33,813 bases of DNA. Source: a virus. A program made the translations under genes and the position numbers. Shown one piece after another: positions 16,238-33,729 of the stretch. A model generated the notes under the pieces. It had not been told where the DNA came from. It was given only the letters and a program-made list of their open reading frames with translations, and ran no database searches. Numbering within the stretch: the first letter of the stretch is position 1; the number at the start of each line of letters is the position of its first letter. The stretch is from IMG/VR virus record IMGVR_UViG_3300027973_000135, positions 1 through 33,813 of that record; one strand, given 5' to 3'.

Positions 16238-19027
16238 TTAATTTAGCTCAGGGATTGGAATTTCCAACACCTGTAAAGCTTTCAGATAGATTTTTACCTG
16301 CTCATTAACTTCTGTTCTATTGTAAGTACTTAAGTTTGGAAGTAGATGCTTAGTGTCCTTAGTGAATTCATCAGCAAATCTTACAAATTCCATAAACTTA
16401 GTATCCAAGACTTTTACTCCTGGGATATCAGACAGAACAAAATATTTAGCAGATAATTCAGCTCTCATATCATCAGATATATCAGCTGCAGATAACAATT
16501 CAAACTCAGTAAGTTTAGTAAGATCTTCTTTTACATCTATTAGCAAAGCTTCTGCTATGGGTTTATGAAATACAATAGAATCAAACTTATTATAGACATT
16601 TAGAAGGTATTTAAATATCTCATTATACTTCTTATCTATAAAGTCAAGATCAAAACACTCATGGAAATAACTAAAATTTTCCCAAATTGGGAACTGTTTA
16701 GCCCACAAGTGATTAGCAAACATGTTAACAGCTGGGTGACAAGTATAATTACCTTCAGTATCTATAGTTCTAAAGAACTCATCGATGTGCTTATAATTAC
16801 TTAAGTCTCTTACATATTTCACATTAGTCTCACTAAGCTTTAGTAGCTGAGTTTGATCACTATAATCCAAATCAGATGCGGCTGAAAAGTGTCCCGACGG
16901 AAGCCTAGTTGGGAGATAGTCAAAGTAATACATAGTATCACTATTACTTCCATAAGGAACATAGCTATACCTGTTATTAAGAGCTGTGGCAAGATTAAAA
17001 TTAAATCTTCTAAGAATAGCAGCAGCCATCTTCAACTTCTCACCATCCTCGTCAGTACCATAGTAAGTAGGAATTGTACTGTTAATAACTGTAAGCAAAG
17101 TTGGCTCTACCTTATCCCACACATAATCAGAATAAGAATTACCTGCATTTCTATGGTTATCGGGACGAAGAGTATATGCTACAATCTGAGAGTTAAGCTT
17201 ACGTTTCTCATCTGGAGTTAAACTTACCCCAGATTCTGTCCTAACAGCAATAGCTTCAGCTCCATCAAATAACTCTTTGATATTATCAGGAAGTACAATC
17301 TCATCATAATTCTCATAAAGTTCTGATGCTTTGATCAACGGCTCTATCAGATTCTGATTAGTAAGCTTCTTAGTATACTCTGCTCTATAATGAGCTATAT
17401 CTGTATCAGGCAACCCAGGGGTATCCATATGGTCCTGTAGATAATTAAGATTAGTCCTCTTAATAGTTACAAATGCCCCATACTTCTGATGCAGATAAAA
17501 GTCTTTGTACTTATTAGAATTAGCTGTACGATAAAATACCTTCTTATCCCCAATCTGTTCCCAATGATCTATCTTATCCGATGTGTACTCAAACACAGCA
17601 CTTACTCCATCATTACTGTGTTGCTTGACAACCTTCTTGTCATGAACCTTCAGATTAAAACCATTAAGAGTTGATGGAATACTAGTAAATTTAATAGTCG
17701 GATCAGGAGAATACTTAGGCTTGATTGACTTAGTATCAATGATGTTTGATAATATTGCAAGAGTTCTCTCACTTGGGTCATCTGAATATTTACTTCCTTT
17801 CTTACCACCAATGATTTGTCTGCAAGTATCTAACCATTTAAGGAAGTCTGTCTCTAATAACTCTTTCTCTACAAGTTCAGTTACCTCATCTGCAGCTGAA
17901 TCGATAAGCTTTTGGATAAAAGCCTTAGTCGAATCACTCCAGATAACCTTCTCTCGTGATGGAGTTACCTCAACACCTTCTTGAATGATTACTTCTTGCC
18001 CTTCTTCATCAATGTAAGACTGTTTAACAGGGCACTTCAAGCCTACAGGACCATACAGGTCTTGCATCTCTAGCTCTCTAAAGTCTACATAGCCATAGTT
18101 AATACCTGTCTCAGCACCCTCTTCTTTTACAATAACAATGTGAGGCTTCTTCAAGTAGTTATTAGTAGAAACAATCAGATTCTTAGAGTTATAGATAATA
18201 TCACTCTTAATCTTCTGTTCCATCTTGTGGCCACTCATCTCTACATAATATTTTACATTATCCAGATAATTAAGTTGCTCCCCTATTGCTTCCTCAAATC
18301 TAGATGAGTTGTGAGACTTAACACCAAAGCTTACCTCAGTCCAGTTAAGATCAACAGTATCCTCATAATATACTGTAGATCCATCAGACAAAGTAATCGA
18401 TGGGTTAATCTGGCCTGTTGTAAGATTGAACTTCGGGATAATGAAGTCAGTCTTATAATTAAAACAATTAGCCTTGAATCTTTTGCCATTGTATACCGTC
18501 TCGATAGTGTAAAAGTCTACACCAGTTGACAGTGCCACCTTAGCACCCAAGCCGAAAGCACCGAAGTTCTGACTTGTGTTACGTTTAGTAGAATAGCCTA
18601 ATTCAAGAATACCTTCTAATCTCTTGGCCCCAATACCTACACCGTAGTCTTTGATGATTAGCTTATCACAATAGCCAATGCCATTGCTGTGTTGATAAGT
18701 TATCTCAACATGGTTACGTGCAATATCCAGGTTAGAAATAGAATAGTAACTAGGGTCAAAGTTAGAATCAGAATACTGCTCCCCATCTCTGGTTATGTAG
18801 TAATCTGATGTTTGTTTAACCCCAGTAAGAATCTCAATAGCAATCTCCTTCTCTCGTTGAGCATCGCAGGCATTTGTTACCAGCTCTCTGACGGTCGAAG
18901 GAATTGGGGTGGAATACTGAGTAGACTGCAAGATATCAAAGACAAGCTTCTCAGCTCCTTTGTTAATTCTCTTAGCCACACCCTTATCCATCCCGATGTA
19001 ATTTTCTTCAATAGTTTTTATACTCAT
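16238..19027 (-). CDS. rIIA: RIIA-like GHKL ATPase
   Basis: 929 residues. The Bergerat ATP-binding fold is clear: N-box RELVTNACDA at 47-56, G1 box DYGVGIG at 127-133 and G2 box GAFGLGAK at 156-163. The rest has no recognised domain but matches the large size of phage RIIA proteins (T4 RIIA is about 725 residues, so this one is longer). It pairs with the RIIB-like protein downstream. A terminator for the upstream nuclease gene lies only 11 bases before the ATG, so rIIA needs either its own promoter in that gap or read-through; I see no convincing promoter box in so short a space. Confidence 0.88.
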   Translation of the reverse strand: MSIKTIEENYIGMDKGVAKRINKGAEKLVFDILQSTQYSTPIPSTVRELVTNACDAQREKEIAIEILTGVKQTSDYYITRDGEQYSDSNFDPSYYSISNLDIARNHVEITYQHSNGIGYCDKLIIKDYGVGIGAKRLEGILELGYSTKRNTSQNFGAFGLGAKVALSTGVDFYTIETVYNGKRFKANCFNYKTDFIIPKFNLTTGQINPSITLSDGSTVYYEDTVDLNWTEVSFGVKSHNSSRFEEAIGEQLNYLDNVKYYVEMSGHKMEQKIKSDIIYNSKNLIVSTNNYLKKPHIVIVKEEGAETGINYGYVDFRELEMQDLYGPVGLKCPVKQSYIDEEGQEVIIQEGVEVTPSREKVIWSDSTKAFIQKLIDSAADEVTELVEKELLETDFLKWLDTCRQIIGGKKGSKYSDDPSERTLAILSNIIDTKSIKPKYSPDPTIKFTSIPSTLNGFNLKVHDKKVVKQHSNDGVSAVFEYTSDKIDHWEQIGDKKVFYRTANSNKYKDFYLHQKYGAFVTIKRTNLNYLQDHMDTPGLPDTDIAHYRAEYTKKLTNQNLIEPLIKASELYENYDEIVLPDNIKELFDGAEAIAVRTESGVSLTPDEKRKLNSQIVAYTLRPDNHRNAGNSYSDYVWDKVEPTLLTVINSTIPTYYGTDEDGEKLKMAAAILRRFNFNLATALNNRYSYVPYGSNSDTMYYFDYLPTRLPSGHFSAASDLDYSDQTQLLKLSETNVKYVRDLSNYKHIDEFFRTIDTEGNYTCHPAVNMFANHLWAKQFPIWENFSYFHECFDLDFIDKKYNEIFKYLLNVYNKFDSIVFHKPIAEALLIDVKEDLTKLTEFELLSAADISDDMRAELSAKYFVLSDIPGVKVLDTKFMEFVRFADEFTKDTKHLLPNLSTYNRTEVNEQVKIYLKALQVLEIPIPELN

Positions 19028-32644: not shown

Positions 32645-32965
32645 TTATTTGTTTTCAACAGCAGCAGCAATACCAAGACCAGTAGCCTCAGGAGCAACAA
32701 CTGCATAAACGATCAATTCAGAAATTTCACGAACTTCACCTTCATCTAAGTCAGCATCAGCACTAACTGAAACTTGGTTAACTACGTCAGCAGCACCTGA
32801 GATAAGGTAGCAAGACAAACCATCAGCAGCTACTTCGAGGGTGCAATCACCTTCGATAACAGACCATACTGGGGCACCATCAACAGTTGCAGGATTGCCA
32901 GCAGCAGTAGTTGGGTTTAGGGTAATAAGAACTTTTTGTTCTGATGTTGAGTTAACTGGAAACAT
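32645..32965 (-). CDS. Small Ig-like protein
   Basis: 106 residues. Pattern LNPTTAAGNPATVDGAPVWS...VAADGLSCYLISGAADV...VSVSADADLDEGE typifies Big_2/Ig-like beta-sandwich proteins that I recall from crAss-like and other phages. Very acidic and Ala-rich. First gene of the minus block, facing the plus-strand operon across an 85-base divergent promoter region. Confidence 0.65.
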   Translation of the reverse strand: MFPVNSTSEQKVLITLNPTTAAGNPATVDGAPVWSVIEGDCTLEVAADGLSCYLISGAADVVNQVSVSADADLDEGEVREISELIVYAVVAPEATGLGIAAAVENK

Positions 32966-33010
32966 AGGATTTAAATTTAAATTAATAAGTTACGAAGATA
33001 GTAAAAGTTC

Positions 33011-33038
33011 GTAACAATTTTCATAGTAAATTTGTTAC
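33011..33038. promoter_or_regulatory. 28-bp palindromic operator candidate, copy B, overlapping a promoter box
   Basis: GTAACA-N16-TGTTAC, identical in half-sites and spacing to copy A. TAAATTTG (33027-33034) within it fits the Bacteroidota -7 element TAnnTTTG and would drive the plus-strand gene at 33051, with RNA starting near 33041. No good TTTG -33 box is seen. A second inverted repeat, GTTACGA/TCGTAAC (about 32990-33014), overlaps its left side. Confidence 0.55.
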
Positions 33039-33050
33039 AAAATCAACAAG

Positions 33051-33185
33051 ATGGCAAAAATAAATACAGCTAACTCATTCAATCCCAACCCTAAGAAAAA
33101 ACGTCCAGGGGTGCACTCTAAGAAAAAGTTCTCAAAGATTAAGAGTTCAAAACTTTACAAGAAAGTTAATAGGGGGCAAGGATAA
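33051..33185 (+). CDS. 44-residue basic protein (KKKRPGVHSKKK type)
   Basis: The middle KKKRPGVHSKKKFSKIKSSK and the end VNRGQG match a family of tiny Lys-rich proteins that I recall from many Bacteroidota phages and elements (PKKKRPGVHAKxKxS...YxRGQGR). Strongly basic, so probably nucleic-acid binding. First gene of the plus-strand operon after the divergent promoter. Confidence 0.65.
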   Translation: MAKINTANSFNPNPKKKRPGVHSKKKFSKIKSSKLYKKVNRGQG

Positions 33186-33190
33186 TTTGC

Positions 33191-33198
33191 TACATTTG
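33191..33198 (+). promoter_or_regulatory. Candidate promoter -7 box for the structured RNA
   Basis: TACATTTG matches TAnnTTTG. It ends 6 bases before the first base of the structured RNA's closing stem, the expected distance to a transcription start. No matching -33 TTTG is visible, so support is partial. Confidence 0.35.
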
Positions 33199-33203
33199 CA
33201 GAT

Positions 33204-33411
33204 AGCAACCATCTCCTAGATGATCACCCCTGAGGGCCAAAAGGTAAGTAAGGGGTCAGACGTTGGGTTCTATCATACTCACATTCAATAACATAGAGTA
33301 TGAAAGTTGTCCCCGATAGTTGCTGAAAAGGAATTGACATAAGGTTCTGGGGTGGATTACGACTATAGGGAAGAATGGAATGTCCCACCGAAGGCTAAAG
33401 ACGGCAGAACT
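33204..33411 (+). ncRNA. Structured RNA candidate
   Basis: Closing stem AGCAACCATC (33204-33213) with GATAGTTGCT (33315-33324), one mismatch. Inside: ACCCCT/AGGGGT (33226-33231 with 33251-33256) and TCATACTC/GAGTATGA (33273-33280 with 33296-33303, 8 bp), together a three-way junction. A second domain follows: GGTTCTG (33343-33349) with CAGAACT (33405-33411), enclosing GGTGG/CCACC (33351-33355 with 33385-33389). The stretch 33186-33498 has no plausible coding gene. No known RNA class recognised (not RNase P, tmRNA, 6S or a group I core that I can see). Confidence 0.55.
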
Positions 33412-33428
33412 GAAGCTCAATTTTAAAC

Positions 33429-33448
33429 AAAAAAATCCCTAAGGGGAT
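33429..33448 (-). terminator. Rho-independent terminator on the minus strand
   Basis: ATCCC/GGGAT stem with a short loop, then seven T on the minus strand. It would stop antisense transcripts before they enter the structured RNA region. On the plus strand it is a hairpin without a T run. Confidence 0.6.
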
Positions 33449-33498
33449 AGGTGTGTCCAATTAAGAAATTTCACGTACCTTTAGAAAAATTTTCTTGT

Positions 33499-33729
33499 AT
33501 GGCAACTAACATTAAAGCAGGGATTTACCAACCCCCATTTACTACAGGAGATGAGAATACAACTAATCTTCTTATATACATAGATGAGAAGATTGTGCAG
33601 TTCCTGGATGAGGAGGAAAAATTCGTGTGTCAGCTTAGCTATGAGGAACTTAGAGGAATCATGGCTATATTAGCTGCAGAGCAAGAAAAGACTCACCTTA
33701 GAATACAAGCCCAGATTAAAAAGAACTAA
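33499..33729 (+). CDS. Small acidic hypothetical protein
   Basis: 76 residues from ATG 33499 (MATNIKAGIYQPPFTTGDEN). An in-frame ATG at 33451 adds 16 residues but begins right after the terminator hairpin. Acidic, then a helical end (GIMAILAAEQEKTHLRIQAQ). The stop overlaps the next ATG (TAATG). No family recognised. Confidence 0.6.
   Translation: MATNIKAGIYQPPFTTGDENTTNLLIYIDEKIVQFLDEEEKFVCQLSYEELRGIMAILAAEQEKTHLRIQAQIKKN

Follow-up and report, generated by a model that had tools for sequence, protein, structure and literature searches.

Antitermination leaders, such as HK022 put, Bacillus EAR and those of the LoaP/ops type, are structured RNAs that lie just 3' of a promoter where a long operon begins, are co-directional with that operon and are not tied to one gene. 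Other large noncoding RNAs with which a new phage RNA can be compared are the phi29-type pRNA, which is phage-encoded and multi-helical, the large structured Y RNAs of bacteria (YrlA, RF02553; some Crassvirales encode a TROVE/Ro protein), and GOLLD and ROOL, which are conserved and elaborately folded and have no known function. The RNA described below is like each of them in these respects. It was found in crAss-like phages, which rank with the most abundant viruses in the human gut and in which the switch to late genes and the start of replication are little understood. A class of RNA that marks the boundary of the late genes in environmental as well as gut members provides a concrete point of entry.

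Architecture and covariation of the RNA

The window, which is the whole 33,813-nt stretch of DNA that was analysed, is a 33.8-kb environmental virus fragment (IMGVR_UViG_3300027973_000135). Its minus-strand genes stop at about position 32965, after which the plus strand carries a 44-aa basic ORF, whose stop codon is just 5' of a TAnnTTTG promoter box, then a gene-free stretch and then a 76-aa ORF, the product of which matched no family above the cut-off. The original prediction, made from the letters of the window, placed in this stretch a structured RNA with several domains that fits no named class, a description borne out by covariation across many homologues and by the lack of any Rfam match. 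Its features are as follows.

33051..33185, plus strand: 44-aa basic ORF (..RPGVHSKKK..YKKVNRGQG), directly 5' of the RNA; a common neighbour, not RNA-specific
33191..33198, plus strand: TAnnTTTG box TACATTTG, a Bacteroidota-type -7 element, 6 nt 5' of P1
33205-33458, plus strand: whole structured RNA, two domains and tail
33205..33323, plus strand: 5' domain, a four-way junction of P1/P2/P3/P4 (covariance-model match 33205-33325)
33205..33209, plus strand: P1 5' strand, pairing with 33319-33323
33319..33323, plus strand: P1 3' strand
33210..33222, plus strand: P2 hairpin (CATC..GATG), double changes at all four pairs
33226..33256, plus strand: P3 and conserved loop (ACCCCU 33226-33231 with AGGGGU 33251-33256)
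33262..33317, plus strand: P4 (GUUGGG 33262-33267 with CCCGAU 33312-33317)
33331..33423, plus strand: 3' domain (P5 33331-33337/33417-33423, P6 33344-33349/33405-33410, P7 33351-33355/33385-33389)
33393-33405, plus strand: near-invariant GGCUAAAGACGGC in the 3' domain
33439..33458, plus strand: conserved 3' tail motif CTAAGGGGATAGGTGTGTCC
33435..33448, minus strand: terminator-like hairpin and T-run, present in the window and not conserved in homologues
33499..33729, plus strand: 76-aa ORF, the first downstream gene, with its start codon shortly 3' of the tail

The five helices that had been predicted (10, 6, 8, 7 and 5 bp) are real as judged by covariation, but their lengths needed correction. 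The supposed 10-bp outer stem is P1, which has 5 bp family-wide and 5-7 in the window, and the bases that had been used to extend it belong to P2 and P4, so the 5' domain is a four-way rather than a three-way junction. The apical hairpin of P4 (33273-33280/33296-33303) varies in length. The second domain exists as had been anticipated, and the promoter box does lie 6 bases before the outer stem, while the conserved tail reaches beyond the predicted end at 33440. Invariant unpaired segments occur within this long, multi-junction RNA, and a tail motif like AAGGGGATAACTATGTC is present in all groups at about one occurrence per genome, for which reason it was rejected as a general phage promoter. 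Mimicry of a 16S rRNA 3' end (GAUCACC...) was also dropped, since the 16S ends of Bacteroidota differ from that type.

Taken by itself, the gene-free stretch of the window has an unremarkable folding energy (z = -1.15 on the plus and -0.46 on the minus strand), which speaks for chance pairings, a DNA cruciform or an overlooked coding region, and the helices therefore needed comparative evidence. In the 5' domain of 16 relatives, 99.7% of cells pair and double changes occupy 41 cells, compared with 9 after shuffling. A covariance search across all groups gave 47 matches, all with E<=1.2e-8. Among 45 distinct sequences, whose alignment had the structure as its guide and so leans towards it, 99.8% of the helix cells of the 5' domain are paired, double compensatory changes are found in 212 cells versus 63 in shuffles, and the covariation score is 0.608 versus 0.18 when shuffled and 0.03-0.09 when slid. 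In a separate check on P1, 14 of 15 strand-pair types were fully paired, compared with 15 of 206 when strands were swapped. The 3' domain was folded de novo, and P5, P6 and P7 have double changes in 16 of 24 pairs in the window-like phages and in 21 of 31 pairs in a diverged group, termed group B, the P5-P6-P7 layout being common to both at low sequence identity. Covariation in homologues, the check on which the original prediction had been staked, is thus what places the helices beyond chance, something that folding energy alone fails to do. The basal pair of P4 is G-U in 44 of the 45 sequences and the closing pair of P3 is U-G in 27 of them; such wobbles would be A-C mismatches on the minus strand, which assigns the RNA to the plus strand, and a DNA cruciform would not keep them. 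A coding region is contradicted by indels among the homologues whose lengths are not multiples of three, in agreement with the prediction that the stretch is gene-free. Chance, cruciform and coding explanations are in effect refuted, and since paired mutations keep the shape of the molecule, the comparative evidence is that this is a real structured RNA encoded on the plus (rightward) strand.

Distribution in Crassvirales and counterpart loci

A search of IMG/VR baited with the 76-aa protein yielded 68 loci, and the RNA was present in 27 of the 73 loci collected at this stage. Two DNA patterns derived from its invariant segments then gave further contigs, and all such loci match an iterated nhmmer profile. 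The total is 94 matching loci, some of which overlap on one contig so that contigs are fewer than loci, and these represent 53 distinct 5' domains, almost all from environmental crAss-like phages. A direct DNA search of GenBank phages with the window and one diverged homologue gave no match, and the 18 hits of the first pattern in 84,980 bacterial and archaeal genomes, none of them significant against the RNA models, are probably due to chance. By covariance model, 17 environmental records (the window plus 16 more) have a single copy of the RNA apiece, and 11 phages that have only the 76-aa protein's family in common with them have no copy.

The carriers appear to belong to Crassvirales, as the proteins checked, those of the window and group B, are of the crAss type. 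The window DNA polymerase has crAssphage cr111_1 as its best match, the 1559-aa protein matches the RNAP subunit gp49 of crAss001 (E 7e-15, ranking second to Leptolyngbya phage Lbo-JY46), and the best matches of group B TerL are gut crAss phages. The window also encodes a 929-aa protein with RIIA-like matches (16238-19027, minus strand). The 44-aa ORF upstream of the RNA belongs to a family of basic peptides of about this length (RPGVHAKTK..SKNYKK.YRGQGR) that is widespread in related phage contigs, is found in Flavobacterium phage immuto and in a 635-kb phage, and has no Pfam or PDB match. It was rejected as the specific partner of the RNA because it is present in 10 of the 11 RNA-less relatives and in other phages; in RNA-less phages the peptide is followed by other sequence that the covariance model does not match.

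The RNA was also found in two human-gut crAssphages, cr111_1 (Steigviridae, 38.8 bits) and cr118_1 (Suoliviridae, 40.4 bits). In both it occupies a gap without annotation that separates genes of opposite direction, just 5' of the rightward genes, and in cr118_1 P3 is compensated (GGCCUA/UAGGUC) and the tail is GUCUUAGGGGAUUAGUGUGUUC. A weak second match in cr118_1 (L204, NC_055872 36217-36287, 24 bits) is probably a chance hit. There was no detectable match to the model in phi14:2, cr108_1 and several other gut crAss phages, nor any in six other gut Suoliviridae phages at E<=0.1, and a pattern from the 3' domains of the gut phages found nothing in IMG/VR.

In crAss001, cr128_1 and the phage 'tikkala', the corresponding gap has a TAnnTTTG box followed by other sequence with a similar tail at its end. 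That of crAss001 (about 650-980, within NC_049977, 600-1010) is just 5' of the late genes, with gp3 downstream, the promoter box TATGTTTG and the tail AAGGGATTGTTATAC, while 'tikkala' carries the exact tail GGGATAACTATGTC. A 3' segment is shared with cr128_1 by crAss001 (E 7e-11) and cr111_1 (E 6e-5). Because the 5'-domain model matches none of the three gaps, they are termed positional counterparts, which are probable but not proven homologues of the RNA. The phages 'tikkala' (L178 1490-1880, OQ198717.1) and crAss001 (L161 600-1010), which are of one genus, are 98.5% identical over the 68 nt up to the promoter box, and past it their gap sequences are dissimilar and their tail motifs similar, as if an RNA module had been swapped. 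In Cellulophaga phage phi17:2_18 (L180 1498-1966, KT962247.1) an annotation-free gap of 470 nt, adjoining a tRNA cluster and without an Rfam match, follows a crAss001-like promoter sequence and may be another structured RNA.

Promoter, downstream operon and possible function

A TAnnTTTG box lies 4-10 nt 5' of P1 in 40 of 49 distinct loci (search span 26 nt), compared with 1.9% of random 26-mers, and the first downstream ORF is co-directional with the RNA in 52 of 52, with a start codon that in most cases is no more than about 80 nt from the tail. No plus-strand terminator follows the RNA in 50 of 52 homologues. The RNA is therefore 5' of an operon, in its direction and shortly after a promoter box, as are antitermination leaders. 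The first genes are many and unrelated, varying by group and including the 76-aa protein and GroES-like proteins, which ties the role of the RNA to the operon and not to one gene; a gene-specific riboswitch would always precede the same gene or pathway. On the minus strand, the hairpin and T-run of the window had been predicted to protect the RNA from antisense transcription. The element is there, but it is not conserved, terminator-like sites on this strand being found in 11 of 52 homologues and mostly at other positions.

The existence, structure, strand and single copy of the RNA, its association with a promoter box and its constant position before the first rightward gene are established. 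The original prediction had listed regulatory, packaging and replication roles; this position speaks for one linked to the expression of the late genes. In Crassvirales the host RNAP is presumed to transcribe these genes (PMC8375218, PMC10136315), and together with the box near P1, the co-directional first ORF and the lack of a plus-strand terminator this fits a cis-acting 5' leader of the late operon, which is tentatively the preferred reading. In most groups transcription would start a few bases 5' of the RNA, at a promoter of the host type (Bacteroidota sigma), and the RNA would be co-transcribed with the late (structural, packaging, lysis) genes as a leader of two multi-helix domains and a conserved tail. 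Folding as it emerged, the nascent RNA would act in cis on the late transcript and confer competence on the host RNAP or on the long late mRNA; processive antitermination is the most plausible way, by analogy with phage put or the Bacillus EAR leaders. A bolder proposal, and a rather doubtful one, is that an ancient Crassvirales RNA, present in freshwater, marine and human-gut phages, joins the host RNAP on the late operon to give a terminator-resistant state, so that a viral RNA would stand in for an antiterminator protein like lambda Q. Strand-specific RNA-seq of crAss001 infection has been published (BioSamples SAMN16810643-54, PMC8375218), and with the crAss001 gap resembling a diverged counterpart, these data allow an immediate check on whether that locus is transcribed.

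The main rival to a cis-acting leader, and a possibility of some weight, is a stand-alone RNA that acts in trans. Transcribed from its own promoter, with its 3' end made at the tail by processing or termination, it would serve together with proteins of the phage or the host (polymerase, ribosome, assembly machinery) as a scaffold or regulator. Such a molecule would account for the box near P1, for the long multi-junction fold with its invariant unpaired segments, for the single copy per genome and for the plus-strand terminator-like site 3' of the RNA at locus L118. It would also account for a second TAnnTTTG-like box between the RNA and the first gene in many groups (17 of 52 by a strict pattern versus 10.5% of random sequences, 40 of 52 by a relaxed one versus 34%), from which the genes that follow could be expressed independently of the leader. 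In L116 and the L074/L080 group the interval from the upstream ORF to the RNA shows no box, and the 5' end there would need processing or an upstream promoter; this, with the second box, is why a trans-acting RNA retains its weight, although a promoter missing from some groups is itself awkward for an RNA with its own promoter. Nor does trans action need the RNA to stand in every case directly before the genes that follow and in their direction, or explain the general lack of a terminator after it.

Other roles are less probable. The RNA sits where the leftward and rightward modules diverge, which would suit a primer or origin transcript, and the replication mechanism of Crassvirales is described as unknown (PMC10136315), but compensatory changes spread through entire domains point to a folded RNA as the product, and group B does not conserve the A-run 5' of the tail, which led to rejection of a ColE1-like primer; a replication-associated RNA is accordingly unlikely. 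Improbable too is a phi29-like packaging RNA that is part of the terminase motor: the RNA is multi-junction and in some groups the same module carries TerL, yet this TerL family is shared with gut crAss phages, most of which are without a detectable RNA, and no Rfam family matches. A Y-RNA-like ligand of a phage TROVE/Ro protein is very improbable. Such proteins are encoded by crAss001 and cr111_1 (NC_049977 97428-97706 and NC_055880 77241-78038, respectively, both on the minus strand) and that of crAss001, the product of an early gene, was called a possible ribonucleoprotein component (PMC8375218), but TROVE was detected in 0 of 17 environmental RNA-bearing records, several of which are fragments, and there is no YrlA match over the RNA.

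Comparison with known RNAs

The whole window searched against Rfam 15 at gathering thresholds gave two tRNAs only, and there were no matches at E<=5 over 32950-33520 or at E<=1 over the RNA of diverged homologues, so the Rfam search suggested with the original prediction returned no family for this RNA. No publication describing it was found in the non-subscription literature searched. With neither an Rfam relative nor a published report found, the RNA family is considered new. From Y RNAs it differs in having no Rfam match and in being carried by environmental genomes in which TROVE was not detected. The Rfam pRNA model matches neither the RNA nor its diverged homologues, and relative to phi29-type pRNA the terminase is of another kind and the RNA is at the start of the late operon, not at a genome end. 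GOLLD and ROOL, to which no Rfam search linked it either, are longer and are not known to share its fixed position before late genes. A relation to put or EAR is likewise not indicated by the Rfam searches, in which put may not be represented. Compared with antitermination leaders, this RNA is much larger, has two domains and belongs to phages of Bacteroidota, and antitermination by it is putative. Its size of 250-400 nt and its complexity exceed those of known antitermination leaders, while in function it may yet turn out to belong to a known type.
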